Positions 5,050 through 32,042 of a stretch of DNA of 37,975 bases are shown here, in pieces. This DNA comes from an uncultured Alphaproteobacteria bacterium (lineage in GTDB: Bacteria > Pseudomonadota > Alphaproteobacteria > Bin95): assembly GCA_937891825.1 (NCBI GenBank), contig CALAHN010000120.1, positions 1-37,975 on the forward strand, written 5' to 3'. Numbering within the stretch: the stretch's first letter is position 1; each line of letters opens with the position of its first letter. A program made the position numbers and the translations under genes. The notes below the pieces were generated by a model. It did no database searches and had not been told where the DNA came from. It saw only the letters and a list, made by a program, of their open reading frames with translations.

Positions 5050-6738
5050 TTGCGGGGGGGCCAACTCAAGGGAGATTCCCGCCCCGAGCGGCTGGACCGC
5101 CGGGCGCGCGCCGTCCGCCGCCAGCGACGGCGGCGCTGGTTCTCGCCGCTCGCCCGCGGCATGCTGCTGGTCAATCTGATCGGGCCGGCGGTTCTGGTCA
5201 CGGGCCTGCTCTACCTGGAGGGCTATGAGGCCGAGTTGATCGAAAGCGAGCTCGGCGTCCTGAAAGCCAAGGCGACCCTGGTCGCGGACGCGCTCGGCGA
5301 GACCGCCAGCCGGGAGCGCGACGGCCCGCGCGGCTACGAGGTCGTGCTGGACCAGGAAATCGCCCGGCGCCTGGTCTACCGCTTCGCCAGCCCCGGCGCG
5401 CCGAGGGTTCGATTGTTCCAGCCCGGCAGCGCGCTGCTGGTCGATAGCCGCAAGGTGCTAGGCGCGACCGGGCTGATCGAAGTCGAGCCCCTGCCGCCCC
5501 CCGACCCGGCCAGCGGCGTCGAGCACACCTTCAATCGCATCTACGACCATATCTCGCCGCTCTGGGAGCAGCTGGTGCGCGGCCGCCCGCTCTATCACGA
5601 GCGGCAGGACCAGACGGCGGTCGACTATCCTGAAGCTGTCGACGCGCTCGCCGGCGAGACCTCGGGCATGGTCCGCCGCCTGCCGGACGGGCGCCTGATG
5701 CTGACGGCGGCGGCCCCGACCCGGCGGTTCAAGCAGGTCGTCGGCGCCGTGCTGCTGTCCCACGAGGCCGACCGGGTGGCGGCGGCCGTCAGGAGCGTGC
5801 GCTTCGATATCCTGCGCCTGTTCGCCGGCGCGATGGCGCTGTCCTTTCTCGCGACCCTGTATCTCGCCGGCGCGATCTCCAGGCCGCTGCGGGCGCTGGC
5901 GCAAGCTGCGGACCGGACGCGCGGCCGGACGACGCTGGAACAGGTCATTCCGGACTTTTCCGCCCGCCGCGACGAAATCGGCGATCTTTCGACCGCGCTC
6001 CGGGAGATGACGGATGCGATCCGGGTCCGCATGGTCGCGACCGAACGTTTCGCCGCCGACGTCGCCCATGAGATCAAGAATCCCCTCACGTCGCTGAAAA
6101 GCGCGGTTGAAACCGTGGCTCGCGTCAAGGACGACGAACGCCGCAACCGGCTGCTCGCGGTCATCCAGCATGACGTGCACCGGCTCGACCGGCTGATCAG
6201 CGACATCTCGGACGCATCCCGCCTGGATGCGGAGCTGACCCGCGAGGCGGTCGAGCCGGTCGATCTGGCCGACATGCTGCGCACCCTCGTGGAAATCGAA
6301 ACGACGGCTTTGGAGGAACGGCCGGGGCCGAGCCTCCGGCTCGAGGTCGCGTCCTCGATCCGCGACAGGGCGCTGGTGAACGGCCTTGAGGTCCGGCTGG
6401 GGCAGGTCTTCCGCAATCTGATCGCCAACGCGCGGTCCTTCAGCCCCCCAGGCGGCCGCATCGAACTTCGGCTGGCGGCGCGCGACGGACAGATCGTCGT
6501 TACGGTCGAGGACGAAGGCCCCGGCATCCAGCCCGGCAAGGAAGACGCGATCTTCGAGCGGTTTTATTCCGAGCGGCCGGTCGCGGAAGCCTTCGGCAGC
6601 CATTCCGGCCTCGGCCTGTCGATTTCGCGCCAGATCATGGCGGCCCACGGCGGAACCCTGATCGCGGAGAACCGCCTCGCGCCCGACCGGACCGTGATCG
6701 GCGCCAGATTTACCGCGGCCCTGCCATCCGCCGGTTGA
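5050..6738 (+). CDS. chvG: Sensor histidine kinase ChvG
   Basis: This is the membrane sensor kinase paired with ChvI. From the TTG at 5050 the product is 562 aa. It has an Arg-rich cytoplasmic start, a first membrane segment about 38-60, a periplasmic stimulus-sensing region to about 255, a second membrane segment about 256-278 and a HAMP linker. The HisKA H-box has His340 in VAHEIKNPL. The ATPase domain has its N-box (NLIANARSF), G1 (DEGPGIQ), F-box (FERFY) and G2 (GLGLSIS), so all kinase elements look intact. The start is uncertain because TTG5050 has a poor ribosome site and the first in-frame ATG is 5161. In most relatives hprK follows. Here the next gene is rapZ after 149 bases. Confidence 0.93.
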   Translation: MRGGQLKGDSRPERLDRRARAVRRQRRRRWFSPLARGMLLVNLIGPAVLVTGLLYLEGYEAELIESELGVLKAKATLVADALGETASRERDGPRGYEVVLDQEIARRLVYRFASPGAPRVRLFQPGSALLVDSRKVLGATGLIEVEPLPPPDPASGVEHTFNRIYDHISPLWEQLVRGRPLYHERQDQTAVDYPEAVDALAGETSGMVRRLPDGRLMLTAAAPTRRFKQVVGAVLLSHEADRVAAAVRSVRFDILRLFAGAMALSFLATLYLAGAISRPLRALAQAADRTRGRTTLEQVIPDFSARRDEIGDLSTALREMTDAIRVRMVATERFAADVAHEIKNPLTSLKSAVETVARVKDDERRNRLLAVIQHDVHRLDRLISDISDASRLDAELTREAVEPVDLADMLRTLVEIETTALEERPGPSLRLEVASSIRDRALVNGLEVRLGQVFRNLIANARSFSPPGGRIELRLAARDGQIVVTVEDEGPGIQPGKEDAIFERFYSERPVAEAFGSHSGLGLSISRQIMAAHGGTLIAENRLAPDRTVIGARFTAALPSAG

Positions 6739-6774
6739 AAAGCGGCGGCCGAAGCCCGATACTTGGTTTGTCGC

Positions 6775-6825
6775 CTAGATCGAACCACGCTCAGGCGGTA
6801 ACGCCCGGAAGCGGATATTTGATCT
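6775..6825 (-). repeat. Partial copy of the 105-bp two-hairpin repeat (hairpin 2 arm), inverted
   Basis: Read on the minus strand this segment aligns along its length with the second half of the copies at 12180-12285 and 28099-28205. It shares the GATCAA start, the TATCC stretch, a GGGCGTTACCGCC-like hairpin core and the terminal GATCTAG. The other hairpin is not recognisable in 6826-6887. It lies between chvG and rapZ, where hprK would be expected. Alignment is by eye. Confidence 0.55.
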
Positions 6826-6887
6826 AAAACATAATTTCAGCGCATTTCGGCGTAAGGACGCCGCTAATCCCATAGGGTCTGCAGTTC

Positions 6888-7763
6888 GTGCCCAAGCGAC
6901 CGAATATCATCATCGTCACCGGCATATCGGGAGCCGGCAAGTCAACGGCGCTGCATGCGTTGGAGGACGCGGGCTTCGACGCGATCGACAATCCGCCGCT
7001 GACCGTCCTGCCGGCCTTGATCGAGGCCTGCGAAAACAGCGCCGGCCTCGCGATCGGCGTCGACATCCGCAGTCGGGGCTTCTCGCTTGAGGCGATCAAG
7101 CGCCTGTTGGCGGACTATCCCGGCGCCCGGCTGCTGTTCCTCGACTGCGATCTTGAGGTCGCGATCCGGCGCTTCACCGAAACCCGCCGGCGCCACCCGC
7201 TCGCGGACGCCGGTTCGCCGGTCGAAGGCATCCGCCTGGAACGGGCGACGATGGAGCCTTTGCGCGCCCAGGCGGAACGGGTCATCGACACGTCGCTGCT
7301 CTCGGGCCGGGAACTGCGCCGCCTGATTCAAGCCGGTTTCGGCGGCAACACCGAACGCCATCTCAGCCTGACGCTGGAATCGTTCTCCTTCCCCAAGGGC
7401 GCGCCGCGCGGCGCGGATCTCGTCTTCGACGTCCGCTTCCTGGCCAACCCCCATTATGAGGATGCGCTCAGGCCGCTGACCGGCCTGGACGGCGACGTCG
7501 CCGCCTTTATTCAGCGCGATCCGAACTTCCAGGGCTTCATGGACCGCCTGCAGGACATGCTGATTTATCTGCTGCCGCTTTACGAACTTGAAGGCAAAAG
7601 CTATCTGACGGTCGCGATCGGCTGTACGGGCGGCCGGCATCGATCGGTCGCGGTGACGGAACAGCTTGGCGCCTATCTGGGCGAGCGCGGCTGGCCCGTG
7701 CGCATCGGCCATCGGGAAATCGAGCGGAGGTCACCGATGAACGACGTCGAGGGCGCGGCATGA
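6888..7763 (+). CDS. rapZ: RNase adapter RapZ (YvcJ family nucleotide-binding protein)
   Basis: RapZ-family proteins bind nucleotides and, in enterobacteria, act as adapters guiding RNase E to small RNAs that control glmS. In alphaproteobacteria the role is less defined and the gene sits with PTS regulators. The 291-aa product starts with GTG (AGGG at 6874-6877 upstream). It has a Walker A motif GISGAGKST at residues 12-20 and the C-terminal family signature GCTGGRHRSV. RFLANPHYEDALRPLTG is also conserved. The last four bases overlap the ptsM start (ATGA), indicating translational coupling. Confidence 0.93.
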   Translation: MPKRPNIIIVTGISGAGKSTALHALEDAGFDAIDNPPLTVLPALIEACENSAGLAIGVDIRSRGFSLEAIKRLLADYPGARLLFLDCDLEVAIRRFTETRRRHPLADAGSPVEGIRLERATMEPLRAQAERVIDTSLLSGRELRRLIQAGFGGNTERHLSLTLESFSFPKGAPRGADLVFDVRFLANPHYEDALRPLTGLDGDVAAFIQRDPNFQGFMDRLQDMLIYLLPLYELEGKSYLTVAIGCTGGRHRSVAVTEQLGAYLGERGWPVRIGHREIERRSPMNDVEGAA

Positions 7764-8164
7764 TTGGCGTCGTGCTTGTATCCCATGGAGCGCTGGCCCA
7801 TGAACTCCTGCGCGCGGCGGAGCATGTGGTCGGGCCGATGACCGGCGCCGAAGCCATCGCGATCGGGCCGGACGACGATCCGACCGTGCGGCGCCAGGAC
7901 ATCATGACCGCGGTCAAACGCGCCGACAGCGGCGGCGGGGTCATTGTCCTGACCGACATGTTCGGCGGCACGCCATCCAATCTGGCCATCTCGATCATGC
8001 AGAACGCCCATATCGAGGTGATCGCCGGCTTCAATCTGCCGATGCTGGTGAATATCGCCCAAAGCCGCGAGCGCAACGACCTGAAAGCGTGCGCCGCATC
8101 CGCGGAAGCTGCGGGACGCAAGTATATCCGCACGGCGAGCGCGGTCCTGGGCGACAAGGCGTGA
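7760..8164 (+). CDS. ptsM: PTS mannose-type EIIA protein (PtsM/ManX-like)
   Basis: This is a cytoplasmic phosphocarrier of the regulatory phosphotransferase system. It accepts phosphate from HPr on a histidine and in alphaproteobacteria is thought to act in signalling, since no sugar-specific EIIB/EIIC is encoded nearby. The 134-aa product is a stand-alone EIIA-Man domain. His9 in VLVSHGALA is the phosphorylation site, and LTDMFGGTPSN near 74-84 is the family signature. It overlaps rapZ by four bases and HPr follows immediately. Confidence 0.93.
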   Translation: MIGVVLVSHGALAHELLRAAEHVVGPMTGAEAIAIGPDDDPTVRRQDIMTAVKRADSGGGVIVLTDMFGGTPSNLAISIMQNAHIEVIAGFNLPMLVNIAQSRERNDLKACAASAEAAGRKYIRTASAVLGDKA

Positions 8165-8169
8165 TCGCC

Positions 8170-8445
8170 ATGGCAGGGGCCTACAGGCGCGCTGTCGTCA
8201 TCAGCAACCCGAAGGGCCTACACGCCAGGCCCTCTGCCGCCATCGCCGAACTGGTGAAAGCCTATGACGCCACGGTGCTGGTCGACTGCAATGGCGAGAC
8301 CGAGGAAGCAAGCTCGATCCTCGGCCTGCTGACCCTGGGCGCTTCCCCCGGCGTCGAATTGAGCTTCCACGCGACGGGGCCTGAAGCGCAGCCCGCCGTC
8401 GACGCCATCGTCGCCTTCGTCAACAAGGGCGGCGATACGCTCTGA
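8170..8445 (+). CDS. ptsH: Phosphocarrier protein HPr
   Basis: HPr carries phosphate from EI to EIIA proteins and can be phosphorylated on a serine by HPr kinase. The 91-aa product has the His site at His18 in KGLHARPS and a Ser at Ser49 in ASSILGLLTLG. The 31-residue spacing equals that between His15 and Ser46 in well-studied HPr proteins, so both phosphorylation sites are kept. ATG8170 is preferred. GTG8161 is in frame and overlaps the ptsM stop (GTGA), so it is an alternative start. The kinase gene hprK is not in the cluster. Confidence 0.93.
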   Translation: MAGAYRRAVVISNPKGLHARPSAAIAELVKAYDATVLVDCNGETEEASSILGLLTLGASPGVELSFHATGPEAQPAVDAIVAFVNKGGDTL

Positions 8446-8462: not shown

Positions 8463-8598
8463 CGTCCTTGCCCTGGCCGCGGGATAGGCTATGTCGCCCA
8501 TATGCACGATGTGTTATATGGTGCAATTCGTCGCCGTCGGCCCTGTCGCCCGCGGTTGTTTTTCGCACTACCCCCACGCTCCAGGAGCCGCTCGCGCC

Positions 8599-9885
8599 AT
8601 GCAGGACTACAAGGTCAAGAATATTTCGCTCGCCGATTATGGCCGGAAGGAAATCGCCATCGCCGAAACCGAAATGCCGGGCCTGATGGCGCTTCGGTCG
8701 GAATTCGGCGCGGCGCAGCCGCTGAAGGGCGCGCGCATCGCCGGCTGCCTGCACATGACCATCCAGACCGCAGTCCTGATCGAAACCCTGAACGCCCTCG
8801 GCGCCGATGTGCGCTGGTCGTCCTGCAACATCTTCTCGACCCAGGATCATGCGGCGGCGGCGATCGCGGCCGGCGGCACGCCGGTCTTTGCCTGGAAAGG
8901 CGAAACCGACGCCGAATACTGGGATTGCGTCGACAAGACGATCGAAGGCCCGAACGGCTGGCGCCCGAACATGCTGCTCGACGACGGCGGCGACCTGACG
9001 GTCGTCATGCATGAGAAGCACACGGCGCTGATGTCCCAGGTCCGCGGCGTTTCGGAAGAAACCACGACGGGCGTCCACCGCCTCTATGAGATGGCGCGTG
9101 CGGGCAAGCTGCTGTGTCCGGCGATCAACGTCAACGACAGCGTGACCAAGTCGAAGTTCGATAACCTCTATGGCTGCCGGGAGAGCCTGGTCGACGGCAT
9201 CAAGCGCGCGACCGACGTCATGCTCGCCGGCAAGGTCGCGGTCGTCTGCGGCTATGGCGACGTCGGCAAGGGCTCGGCCGAAAGCCTGCGCAGCCAGGGC
9301 GCGCGGGTCCTGGTCACGGAAATCGATCCGATCTGCGCCCTGCAGGCGCTGATGGCCGGCTATGAAGTCACGACCGTCGAAGACGTCGTGGCGCGCGCCG
9401 ACATTTTCGTCACGGCGACCGGCAATCGCGACGTCATCACCATCGACCACATGCGCGCTATGAAGGATCGGGCGATCGTCTGCAATATCGGCCATTTCGA
9501 TAACGAAATTCAGGTCGACGCCCTGCGCAACCTGACCTGGCACAATGTCAAGGAACAGGTCGACGAGATCGAGTTCCCGGACGGCAAGCGCATCCTGCTG
9601 CTGGCGGAAGGCCGCCTGGTGAACCTGGGCTGCGCCACCGGCCACCCGTCCTTCGTCATGAGCGCCAGCTTCTCGAACCAGGTCCTGGCGCAGATCGAGC
9701 TTTGGACCAACGCGAACAACTACGAAAACAAGGTCTACGTGCTGCCGAAGCACCTGGACGAAAAAGTCGCGGCCCTGCATCTGGGCCGTCTGGGCGCCAA
9801 GCTGACGAAGCTGTCCGCCGAACAAGCCGCATATATCGGCGTCGACGACGCCGGCCCCTATAAGCCGGACTACTATCGCTACTAG
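8599..9885 (+). CDS. ahcY: Adenosylhomocysteinase (SAH hydrolase)
   Basis: This enzyme reversibly splits S-adenosylhomocysteine to homocysteine and adenosine with tightly bound NAD, relieving product inhibition of methyltransferases. The 428-aa product matches the short bacterial form. Visible signatures are [30 protein letters not shown], the Rossmann loop [10 protein letters not shown] and the C-terminal NAD-contacting KPDYYRY. The start [14 protein letters not shown] at ATG8599 agrees with the family and has AGGAG at 8583-8587. An upstream in-frame extension to 8491 is not family-like. The TAG stop overlaps the first bases of a 163-bp foldback repeat. Linkage to ptsH and a divL-like gene is typical of alphaproteobacteria. 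Confidence 0.96.
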
Positions 9886-10107: not shown

Positions 10108-10202
10108 TTCAGTAAGCTGGGGCATGGATGCGGCCGCCTGGACGCTCCCGGCTCCCGGCGGTAAACGCGAAGCGGCGGCAGGCGCGAAACGGAGGGGCGG
10201 CG

Positions 10203-12164
10203 ATGGCGGGAGGGGCCGGCGTTATTCTTGGCCTGGCTCTTGCCGTCGCCATGGCGCTTGCGGTCGTCGCCCTGCTGCTGCGGCGCCGCGTGCGCGCCCT
10301 TGAAGCGCAGGCCGCCCATGCCGAAGCCGCCGCGGCGACGCACCGCGGCGCCGAAGCCGCGGAGCGCGCCCGCGCCGAGTTCTACCGGGAAATCCTCGAT
10401 ACCTTGCCGATCCCGATCTGGCGCCGGGCGCAGGATTTGACGCTCTTGTTCGTGAACCGCGCCTACGCCTTCGCCGCCGGCGCGGACTCGCCGGCCGAAG
10501 CCCTGATCGCGGGCAAGGAGATCGGCGCCGACGACGCGGCCAGCCTGGCCCGCCGCGCCCGCAACACCGGCGAGGCGCTCTCCGAAAGCCGGGCGACCAT
10601 CGTCGGCGAGGACCGCGTACTGATCGAAGCGACGGAACGGCCGCTGCCCACGGGCGGACTGGTCGGCGACGGCCGCGACGTCACGGCGCTGATCGCGGCC
10701 CAGGACGAGCAGGCGCGCCTCATCGAGGCCCATGCCGAAGTGCTGGAACGGGTCGGCTCGGCGGTCGCGGTCTTCACGTCGGCGAGGCATACGGCCTTCT
10801 TCAACGCCGCCTTCACCGAACTCTTCGATTTCGAGTCCGAGGTCCTGATCGACATGACCTTGACGGAGATGCTCGAAGACCTGCGCGCCCGGCGCATGCT
10901 GCCGGAAGTCGTCGATTTCCAGGCGTTCAAATCGGCCCGCATGGCGGATTTCCAGCATCTTCTGGATGTGCGCGAGCAATATCTGTACCTGCCCGATGGG
11001 CGGACATTGAAGGAAAGCATCGCGCCGCACCCCCAGGGCGGCCTGATCTACATCTATGACGACGTGAGCGACCGGCTGGCGCTCGAACGCTCCTACAAGA
11101 TGCTCGACCGGGTTCAGCGGCAAACCCTCGACGCCTTGCAGGAAGGCATCGCCGTGTTTGGCGAGGATGGGCGGCTCCGCCTGTCGAACCCCGCCTTCGA
11201 CGCCGTGTTTCTGGCCGAAGGCGAAACCGGCCGCGAGCCCCATGTCAGCCATGTGGCGGACGCCGCCCGCACCGTCCTGACCCAGAAGAGCTGGCGGGAC
11301 GGGCGGGACGATCTGGTGGAATCCGTCACCAATCGCAAATCGACCGTCATCCCCGTCGACACCCGGGACGGCCGGTTACTGGAAATAGCGACGGCGCCCC
11401 TGGCGGACGGCGGCGTGCTGCTGGCGGTCTATGACATCACCGACCGCCTCGCGATCGAGCAGGGGCTGCGCGCCCAGGCCGAAGCCCTGCGCGCCGTCGA
11501 TCGGCTGAAATCCGAATTCCTGGCCGGCATTTCCTACGAACTTCGCACGCCGCTGACCTCCATCCTGGGCTTTGCAGATATGCTGCGAGCCGGAGCGGCC
11601 GGGCCGATTTCGCCCCGGCAGGCCGACTATCTCGACGATATCCTCTCCGCCGCCAACGCCTTCATCGCCATGGTCGACGACATCATCGACGTCGCGGCCA
11701 TCGAGGCCGGCCGCACCAGCCTGGAACGCGCCTCGACGCCCGCCGCCGAGGCGATCGGCGTCGCCGCCTCGGCAGCGGCCGCGCGGATCGCGCCGCTGCC
11801 GCTCAACATCGCGCCGTCCGCCGAATCTGGCCTGATCTTCGACGCGGACCCCGACCGCCTCCGCCAGATCCTGACGCGGCTCATCACGGTCGCGGGGCAA
11901 TATGCTCGGGACGCCGCGACCGTCACCGTCACCGCCAAGAGCGACGGCGACTGGGCCGTCGTCACCGTCACGGTCGGCGACAGCGCGCTGCCGCTCGGCC
12001 TCTCCGCCGGCCTGGAGCCAGCGCGCACGGCCGGCGCCAGCATCGACCTCAATCTCGCAACGCGCCTCGCCCAGGCCCATGGCGGCGACCTGACCGTCGA
12101 GCGCGCCGGCCCCGGCATGCTCCTGGCCCGCTGCCGCCTGCCCAGGGGACGGCCGACGCTGTAG
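10203..12164 (+). CDS. divL: DivL-like PAS-domain tyrosine pseudokinase
   Basis: DivL proteins are alphaproteobacterial kinase-like regulators that bind DivK and control the CckA-CtrA cell-cycle pathway at the membrane. The 653-aa product has an N-terminal membrane helix (about 5-27), a short coiled stretch, PAS-like regions across about 55-420, and a HisKA domain in which the acceptor histidine is replaced: ISYELRTPLTSILGF places Tyr445 where His is normal. The ATPase region is eroded. The N-box position reads RLITVAGQYA without the usual Asn, and no DxGxG or GxGLGL loops are clear. ATG10203 is chosen because GGAGG (10191-10195) lies 7 bases upstream; ATG10128 is an in-frame alternative. Position after ahcY supports orthology to DivL. 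Confidence 0.82.
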   Translation: MAGGAGVILGLALAVAMALAVVALLLRRRVRALEAQAAHAEAAAATHRGAEAAERARAEFYREILDTLPIPIWRRAQDLTLLFVNRAYAFAAGADSPAEALIAGKEIGADDAASLARRARNTGEALSESRATIVGEDRVLIEATERPLPTGGLVGDGRDVTALIAAQDEQARLIEAHAEVLERVGSAVAVFTSARHTAFFNAAFTELFDFESEVLIDMTLTEMLEDLRARRMLPEVVDFQAFKSARMADFQHLLDVREQYLYLPDGRTLKESIAPHPQGGLIYIYDDVSDRLALERSYKMLDRVQRQTLDALQEGIAVFGEDGRLRLSNPAFDAVFLAEGETGREPHVSHVADAARTVLTQKSWRDGRDDLVESVTNRKSTVIPVDTRDGRLLEIATAPLADGGVLLAVYDITDRLAIEQGLRAQAEALRAVDRLKSEFLAGISYELRTPLTSILGFADMLRAGAAGPISPRQADYLDDILSAANAFIAMVDDIIDVAAIEAGRTSLERASTPAAEAIGVAASAAAARIAPLPLNIAPSAESGLIFDADPDRLRQILTRLITVAGQYARDAATVTVTAKSDGDWAVVTVTVGDSALPLGLSAGLEPARTAGASIDLNLATRLAQAHGGDLTVERAGPGMLLARCRLPRGRPTL

Positions 12165-30560: not shown

Positions 30561-32042
30561 TCAGGCGGCGACCTTGATGGCTTGTCCGGGCAGCGTCACC
30601 GTCGCCCGGACGCCCTTGCCCTCTTCGCTCTCGAGGGCGAAGGCGCCGTGCTGGCCCTCGATCAGGCGCTTGACGAGATAGAGCCCGAGGCCCGTGCCGC
30701 TTTCGCGCGCGGCATGCTGGTTCTTCGCCTGGGAGAAGGGCTGCATCAGCTTCGAAATCTCGCCGGCCGGGATGCCGACGCCGGTATCCTGGACGACCAG
30801 ACGGACGCCGCCCCGGTCTCCCCGGCCCAGGCTGACCGTCACCGCGCCGCCGCTTGGCGTGAACTTGACCGCGTTCGAGAGCAGGTTCAGCAGAACCTGC
30901 GTCAAGGCGCGTTCGTCGCCGATCGCGTTCTGCAGGCCGGGTTCGACATCGACCGACAAGACGACGCCCGCGCGCTCGACGCGCTCCTCCATCATCAGCA
31001 CGGCCTGGTCGACCACATCGGCCAGCGAAACCGGCTCCTCCGCCAGTTCCAGCTGGCAGGATTCGATCCGGCTGATGTCGAGAATGTCGTTGATCATGTC
31101 GAGGAGATGCCGGCCGCTGGACTGAATATCCCGGGCGTACTCGACATATTTCCGATTGGCGATGCGCCCGAACAGTTCGTCGGCGATCACCTCGGAAAAT
31201 CCGATGATGGCGTTGAGCGGCGTCCGCAGCTCATGGCTCATGGTCGACAGGAACTCCGACTTCGCCATGTTCGCCGCTTCCGCCGCCTTCGACGCCCGTT
31301 CAAGCTGTTCGGCGATCAGCGCCCGCTCGGTCACGTCCTGGCCGGCGCCGCGATAGCCGATGAAGCGGCCCTTCCGGTCGTATAGCGGCTTGCCGCTCAA
31401 GGAAAAGCATCGCCGGCCGTTCGGCGCATTGACCCAATAGGAGAAAGCGTGAAATGCCCGGCGGGCGATCAGATCCGCCATGTGCCCGCTGATATCGCCG
31501 CCGACCTGATGCTTGCGCAGAAGGTCCGTGCGGCGCGACCCGATCAGATCCTGTTCGTCGAAACCCGTCAACTCATAGGCCCGGCGGGAGAGGAACGTGT
31601 AGCGATGCTCGATGTCGGTTTCCCAGATCCAGTCGGCGCTGACCTCAAGCACATCGGTGAAGCGTTCAATGGCGAGATGCAGCGCCTGATCCGCCTTGAT
31701 GCGGCCAGCGGCCAGAAGCCCGGCGCCGAGCAGCGCCACCACGGACCCGCCGCGCGCCGCAAGCACCAGGGCCACGTCGGACAGATCGTCCATGCCGAAC
31801 GCGCCGCCGATGGCGACGAAGGCGGCGCCGACGAAGGCGCACAGGATCGGGCCCGGCGCCCAGGTCAGCCAGAGACAGGGAAACGCCATGCCGAGATAAG
31901 CGATCGCGATCACGTCGCCCGTATCCAGGAGCAGATCTGCCCCGAGGATCAGCGCGCCGTAGATGATCGCTGCTGCGATAACGATTACCTGGTTCAACAC
32001 CAGCTTGCTCCCGCGGCAAAAAGGTTTCGCGAAGGTATACAT
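30561..32042 (-). CDS. Orphan membrane PAS-domain sensor histidine kinase
   Basis: The 493-aa product has three or four N-terminal membrane segments (about 15-115), a PAS domain at about 122-245 (FTDVLEVSADWIWETD to QDVTERALI), then HisKA with His270 in MSHELRTPLNAIIGFSE, and a complete ATPase domain with the N-box LLNLLSNAVKFTP, G1 DTGVGIP and G2 GTGLGLYLV. All elements needed for autophosphorylation are present, in contrast to the DivL-like protein at 10203. No response regulator is adjacent, so the partner is elsewhere. The gene is convergent with the acyl-CoA dehydrogenase. The signal is unknown. Confidence 0.92.
   Translation of the reverse strand: MYTFAKPFCRGSKLVLNQVIVIAAAIIYGALILGADLLLDTGDVIAIAYLGMAFPCLWLTWAPGPILCAFVGAAFVAIGGAFGMDDLSDVALVLAARGGSVVALLGAGLLAAGRIKADQALHLAIERFTDVLEVSADWIWETDIEHRYTFLSRRAYELTGFDEQDLIGSRRTDLLRKHQVGGDISGHMADLIARRAFHAFSYWVNAPNGRRCFSLSGKPLYDRKGRFIGYRGAGQDVTERALIAEQLERASKAAEAANMAKSEFLSTMSHELRTPLNAIIGFSEVIADELFGRIANRKYVEYARDIQSSGRHLLDMINDILDISRIESCQLELAEEPVSLADVVDQAVLMMEERVERAGVVLSVDVEPGLQNAIGDERALTQVLLNLLSNAVKFTPSGGAVTVSLGRGDRGGVRLVVQDTGVGIPAGEISKLMQPFSQAKNQHAARESGTGLGLYLVKRLIEGQHGAFALESEEGKGVRATVTLPGQAIKVAA

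Follow-up and report, generated by a model that had tools for sequence, protein, structure and literature searches.

An alphaproteobacterial DivL ortholog without recognisable ATP-site motifs as a candidate catalysis-free scaffold

Introduction

Does DivL need a nucleotide in order to signal? The question has so far been argued from mutants of C. crescentus. According to the available excerpts of the study describing it, the DivL of this species keeps all motifs of the CA domain and binds TNP-ATP weakly, at 57 uM (PMC4211667). The same excerpts and those of a commentary (PMC5361649) report that the protein has no kinase or phosphatase activity, that it binds DivK~P and that its CA domain is dispensable. 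Natural losses of the catalytic part are also on record, as far as the accessible passages of the respective papers go. Brilli et al. described DivL without a kinase domain, always in the absence of DivK (PMC2877005). The Rhodobacter Osp paper describes a short DivL without kinase domain in Rhodobacterales, where DivK is lost, as well as a long DivL with degenerate HK/CA domains after DivK loss in Oceanicella and Albimonas; one Roseobacteraceae species with a short DivL has DivK, which was ascribed to transfer (PMC9430884). In addition, the DvlL of Wolbachia/Anaplasmataceae is without a catalytic domain, and the passages available of the Wolbachia paper report no DivK homolog (PMC4426382).

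The locus analyzed here lies in a window of 37,975 nucleotides (the whole stretch of DNA that was analyzed) from an uncultured alphaproteobacterium. A preliminary description had proposed that it encodes a DivL-like protein with Tyr in place of the phospho-accepting His and with an eroded ATPase domain, working only as a binding scaffold. We refer below to genomes, loci and families by our own handles (G, L and f numbers, respectively) where they need to be told apart.

Results and Discussion

The gene and its neighborhood

The features of the gene are collected in Table 1. Its extent and start had been correctly placed before: the ATG follows a GGAGG at a spacing of 7 bases, and a Met near the aligned start position is also found in the protein of a neighbour genome. 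The N-terminal hydrophobic stretch forms the beginning of one helix (residues 5-67) in the DSSP assignment of the model. In the H-box, SEFLAGISYELRTPL, residue 445 is Y, in agreement with the proposal of a Tyr at the phosphoacceptor position of an otherwise good H-box.

Table 1. Positions of the divL gene, its parts and its upstream neighbor in the window.
Feature	Position	Strand	Evidence
ahcY, neighbor upstream of divL	8491..9885	+	TIGR00936, 636 bits; synteny
GGAGG, predicted ribosome-binding site of the 10203 ATG	10191..10195	+	Sequence; inferred
divL ortholog, 653 aa	10203..12164	+	Sequence, Pfam, PDB and genome comparison
N-terminal hydrophobic stretch (~residues 5-27), probable membrane anchor	10215..10283	+	Sequence and model DSSP
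Three PAS domains (~residues 61-160, 180-290, 307-418)	10383..11456	+	Pfam PAS_7 (87 bits) in three stretches; model secondary structure
DHp helical hairpin (~residues 430-505)	11490..11717	+	Pfam HisKA, 59 bits; residue table vs C. crescentus DivL; model helices 413-462, 471-501
Tyr445 codon, replacing the phospho-accepting His (= Tyr550 of C. crescentus DivL)	11535..11537	+	Sequence, alignment
Eroded CA (ATPase-fold) domain, residues 508-650	11724..12152	+	HATPase_c below cut-off; CA fold kept in model; congener dN/dS
Val563, replacing the N-box Asn	11889..11891	+	Alignment
Expected G1 DxGxG site: GDSALPLGL, no motif; no recognisable F-box afterwards	11976..12002	+	Alignment; model pLDDT <50 at residues 597-612
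G2 remnant GASIDLNL instead of GxGLGL	12033..12056	+	Alignment

Further upstream (5050-8445, +), genes for ChvG, RapZ and EIIA-man stand in succession with an ORF at 8089-8445 that we take to be HPr-like from its GLHARP motif. In other alphaproteobacteria an HPr kinase gene sits at the ChvG/RapZ position; here the gap between the two genes is 149 bases only, and thus there is no room for it.

Orthology to DivL

With the window protein as query, matches at 1e-30 or better were obtained in 31 of 60 genomes (its own included), many of them near full-length and some partial. A sequence search of the PDB placed DivL of C. crescentus (4q20) second, behind the GacS kinase 7z8n. Against 4q20, the 124 motif-intact orthologs of the survey described below scored a median of 163 bits (107-203) and eight other kinases of the same genome as the window 34-106 bits. 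For the DHp region alone, the window protein reached 53 bits and those eight kinases 8-52, with one of them (L108) nearly level at 52 bits. For the whole DHp-CA region the window protein scored 63 bits, below six of the eight, because its CA domain is eroded. Of eight other genomes checked, six have ahcY adjoining divL (L113, L114, L116, L117, L119/L012 and L129); it was not found next to divL in L118, nor in L115, whose divL runs up to the end of the contig. Among the 17 other matches to the window protein in its own genome, the best paralog scored 96 bits, versus 748 bits for the ortholog of G001. A search of further genome contigs returned three distant matches only (23-26% identity) and no DivL.

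The architecture is likewise that of DivL, namely several PAS domains followed by DHp and a CA domain that scores below the Pfam cut-off with its fold kept in the model. The acceptor is the Tyr expected of DivL; it is carried by 135 of the 151 scorable DivLs and is thus not there by chance. It could be argued that the protein is a different PAS histidine kinase, of the PleC, DivJ or PdhS type, which acquired its Tyr independently, as DivJ and PdhS models are among its NCBIfam matches. Both models score far below their cut-offs, and the orthologs share long-range similarity over three PAS domains, the ahcY synteny and the Tyr, so that, with the paralog and 4q20 scores given above, another kinase family was rejected as hardly credible at all. 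A closer likeness to such a family had been named beforehand as the result that would speak against DivL, and it was not found. The proposed identity is borne out by the long-range similarity, the synteny and the anchor to 4q20, and the window gene is a DivL ortholog, orthologous to the named DivL rather than to the other kinases.

Loss of the ATP-site motifs and predicted structure of the CA domain

Alignment with relatives confirmed that the ATPase domain lacks the N-box Asn and the G1/G2 loops (Val563; no DxGxG after the strand VTVTV; GASIDLNL), and no F-box was recognisable in the CA domain. The protein therefore has none of the N, G1 and G2 motifs required of an active class I histidine kinase, and Tyr445 stands where such a kinase requires the H-box His. 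HATPase_c scored 23.8 bits, below the Pfam cut-off of 26.4; it scored 100.6-104.5 bits in four intact DivLs and, among kinases of the own genome, 74 bits in CckA, 79 in ChvG, 96 in the kinase at 30561-32042 and 95-105 in five others. As for other eroded DivLs, the score was 18.2 bits in L009, the domain was absent in L211, and five more passed the cut-off with 34-38 bits, indicating a less complete erosion. The span from N-box to G2 measures 49 residues in the window protein, where intact DivLs have a median of 57 (54-69); this shortening is not common to its congeners, since L009 has 59 residues. The N-box and G1 losses are common to the same-genus L009 and L010, and the G2 loss is also found in L009; in L010 the contig breaks off ahead of G2, which was scored as missing. 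From these motifs, the window protein is inferred to no longer bind ATP.

A frameshift, or motifs hidden in another forward frame, was also considered and rejected. Between 11880 and 12164, all three forward frames were free of G1, G2 and N-box patterns, and divL contains no internal stop, its frame being open to the last CA strands.

Modeling of the C-terminal domain had been suggested as a check. An AlphaFold2 model from 23 sequences (mean pLDDT 84.4, pTM 0.39) predicts a retained CA fold and leaves the segment of the ATP-site loop unsure, given block means of pLDDT of 77-91 for residues 511-590, 44-72 for 591-620 and 73-89 for 621-650 (68-77 for the DHp blocks) and, in a second look, tied top Foldseek matches to 7z8n_A (Z 19.6) and 4q20_B (Z 19.4; 215 residues, rmsd 5.0). 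When the entire model was searched against the PDB with Foldseek, long multi-domain chains with large rmsd came out on top, and the identity of the protein was not drawn from this search.

The CA fold retained in the model, together with the purifying selection on this domain in congeners (see below), may also be read as a sign that the pocket of the domain has been remodelled and continues to take up a nucleotide or some other small ligand as an allosteric signal; weak TNP-ATP binding (57 uM) is indeed reported in the excerpts for the C. crescentus protein (PMC4211667), whose motifs are intact. However, the N-box Asn and DxGxG are absent from the window protein, L009 and L010, as is GxGLGL from the window protein and L009, and we regard such binding as unlikely. 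Our analysis is best read in terms of a scaffold that would sense DivK for CckA and do so without a nucleotide.

Selection on the eroded domain

The erosion is common to G001 and G003, and a comparison of the two gave dN/dS values of 0.02, 0.008 and 0.03 (the three PAS domains), 0 (DHp) and 0.087 (CA; 97 codons compared, as L010 is cut), with 0.26 for the first 60 N-terminal residues. CA dN over total dS had a median of 0.16 (0.02-0.61) in 12 same-genus pairs of eroded DivLs, two of which reach 0.45 and 0.61, and of 0.205 in intact pairs (47 of 54 pairs with finite dS); the ratio of CA to PAS dN was 1.79 in eroded versus 1.28 in intact pairs (p 0.12), the pairs being not independent (one genus accounts for 6 of the 12 eroded ones) and many dS values being near saturation. 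Column entropy was higher in eroded than in intact DivLs for DHp (1.33 and 1.73 vs 0.79 and 1.19) and CA (2.11 vs 1.57), and slightly so for PAS. Constraint on the eroded DivLs is thus relaxed, though not gone, and their CA domain is still selected.

A pseudogene was rejected on the basis of dN/dS and synteny. Given its open frame, the erosion common to congeners and a CA dN/dS of ~0.09, the window divL does not look like a frameshifted gene or a pseudogene.

The fact that the CA domain is kept and constrained after the loss of its ancestral ligand motifs might alternatively mean that the remnant now serves as a module for binding another protein, such as CckA or a polar scaffold. Yet the CA columns of eroded DivLs are more variable than those of intact ones, and simple structural packing on DHp accounts equally well for the constraint; a new module is therefore a doubtful explanation in our opinion, and a binding scaffold with a passive CA domain appears the likeliest function to be read from the sequence.

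Recurrence among DivLs

A search with the eroded window protein at E <= 1e-55 matched 196 of 386 genomes, its own included. The survey comprised 155 loci, namely 100 among the matches listed, 26 new loci and 29 from the search of 60 genomes; listed matches in G287, G272, G233 and G200 were left out. Five rows were dropped, because the frame stops before a scorable DHp-CA (L036, L037, L147) or because of an N run (L174) or a contig end (L207). The 150 remaining loci and the window protein make up a scored set of 151 DivLs from 150 genomes, in which G078 gives two rows and L035 (G006) lacks part of its N-terminus owing to a contig end.

N, G1 and G2 were all kept in 124 of the 151 DivLs; one was lost in 3, two in 12 and all three in 12 (L010 included). 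Those with at least two losses, here called eroded, amount to 24 of 151 DivLs in 13 of 75 families. On a tree of the PAS-DHp columns built by a quick method, the eroded label requires 13 changes, at least seven of them forced by well-supported (starred) branches, a count that is rough because of long branches: of the seven rows flagged for them, five are eroded (L035, L246, L031, L250 and L021), and their placement is unsure. Shuffled labels required 22.5 changes on average, and in none of 500 shuffles was the number as low as the observed 13.

The acceptor residue was Y in 135 DivLs, H in 6, F in 3 and R in 2, with V, S, C, E and G once each. A test for a link between CA erosion and Tyr loss gave no support for one (median p 0.25 over 7 independent pairs). 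A His acceptor combined with the loss of all three CA motifs was seen in L229 and L232 (G351 and G282, family f89). L028, L192, L205 and L215 have His together with intact CA motifs and, judging from these residues, could be active kinases or reversions. G078 carries two DivL-like genes (L133 and L155), both with intact CA motifs. In G053, a 990-aa frame (L118, 8102-11071, -) joins a DivL with partly eroded CA and a Ser acceptor to a C-terminal P-loop part, presumably TsaE-like.

DivK and its docking residues

DivK, called by sequence match at E <= 1e-32 irrespective of its single-domain state, was matched in 21 of 24 genomes with eroded DivL, 112 of 123 with intact DivL and 1 of 3 with partial loss (eroded vs intact, Fisher p 0.70). 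Taken with the tree, this suggests that ATP-site loss has been repeated in Alphaproteobacteria, mostly without loss of DivK. All five docking residues expected of DivL are identical in the window protein: R448, P450, T452, D492 and A498 of its DHp correspond to R553, P555, T557, D595 and A601 of C. crescentus DivL, counted from Tyr550 in the alignment of the two. Where C. crescentus DivL has Y562, the window protein has F, a residue that every one of the 124 intact DivLs surveyed also carries. Another residue stands in for the docking Arg (R553; R448 here) in 5 of the 16 genomes that lack DivK and in 1 of the 134 that have it (p 4e-5, a value that ignores kinship, two of the five belonging to one genus and two to one family). 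Among the genomes with an eroded DivL, three have no DivK match (G034, G257 and G391), and these are also the only ones to lack the docking Arg. To judge from its residues, then, the window protein is a DivL in which the ATP-site motifs alone are lost, with DHp, docking residues and DivK kept.

The CckA-CtrA pathway in the genome and its order

CckA, ChpT, CtrA and DivK, expected alongside DivL, are all found in the own genome. CtrA scored 406 bits (curated cut-off 350) and DivK matched 1m5t at E 4.6e-47, with PleD beside it; ChpT passed the cut-off of PF10090 and lies under those of the NCBIfam models, and CckA had NF046020 as its best model (573 bits, under the 1000-bit cut-off). Across the order, DivL, CckA and ChpT occur together in the same four of 14 genomes (G000, G001, G003 and G006, the own one included), all of which have DivK. 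CtrA is present in G000 and G006; G001 has only a fragment of it close to the end of a contig, and no CtrA was found in G003, which is 83% complete and whose CckA is a C-terminal piece only (75% identical, two stops in the match).

In the other ten genomes, comprising G002 and G004 of the same genus and eight of genus g2, no match to the window protein was found at 1e-30, and a DivL profile search gave matches to the kinase part only, in four of them (1e-41 to 1e-44). ChpT and CckA were not found in these ten, nor was a CtrA over the curated cut-off; within one family, the CtrA phosphorelay thus seems to have been lost in its entirety. The absence of DivL from so many relatives, and the greater variability of eroded DivLs, might be taken to mean that divL itself is decaying towards loss. 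However, since ChpT and CckA are also missing there, DivL goes with the whole pathway, and genomes that keep the pathway have a DivL with an open frame and under constraint; progressive decay is accordingly very improbable.

A working model and its relation to known DivLs

We thus favor, with a probability of roughly 0.77, the view that the window gene encodes a functional DivL ortholog acting as a catalysis-free signaling scaffold. The protein would be anchored in the membrane and would dimerise through the DHp hairpin, the DHp face that includes Tyr445 would dock DivK or its phosphorylated form, and the PAS domains may relay the state of DivK to CckA, by homology to C. crescentus, with CckA feeding ChpT and CtrA; the steps from DivK binding onward are modeled on that species. 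The CA domain, its ATP site lost, would persist beside DHp as a selected, passive structural module, folded as predicted by the model.

The resemblance to C. crescentus DivL, as far as the excerpts describe it, covers the PAS-DHp-CA layout, the Tyr for His, the docking residues and the DivK-CckA-ChpT-CtrA genes (4q20; PMC4211667), whereas the window protein has none of the N, G1, F and G2 motifs that the former keeps along with its weak TNP-ATP binding. With the short Rhodobacterales DivL and the Wolbachia/Anaplasmataceae DvlL it shares the natural loss of a catalytic part (PMC2877005, PMC9430884, PMC4426382); those have lost the kinase part, and the passages available report no DivK for them, while here DHp and the predicted CA fold stay and DivK is present. 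The long DivL of Oceanicella and Albimonas is similar in that its HK/CA domains are described as degenerate but recognisable (PMC9430884). There the degeneration is reported to have followed DivK loss, in contrast to the 21 of 24 eroded genomes here in which a DivK match is kept.

The preliminary description had seen in this locus an extension of the dispensability of DivL catalysis to natural loss of ATP binding. Loss of the catalytic part as such is already in print, in the passages of the three papers just cited; what can be added is the recurring loss of the ATP motifs with DivK kept. No report of the latter was found in the main texts of the mostly open-access papers covered by our literature search, some of them available in part, and its occurrence in several lineages appears to be new.

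On a broader scale, we consider it somewhat better than an even bet that ATP sites have been lost many times independently in Alphaproteobacteria with DivK and the docking face kept, that the co-evolution of DivK with DHp-CA described in the literature really concerns the DHp docking face, and that CA is a nucleotide-free structural or regulatory element, possibly with a lid so remodelled as to expose the Tyr to DivK~P. DivLs with DivK and the docking residues but without ATP motifs are natural separation-of-function variants, through which the need of DivL for a nucleotide becomes testable beyond C. crescentus mutants, and they suggest that the docking helix pair, and not the ATPase pocket, co-evolves with DivK.
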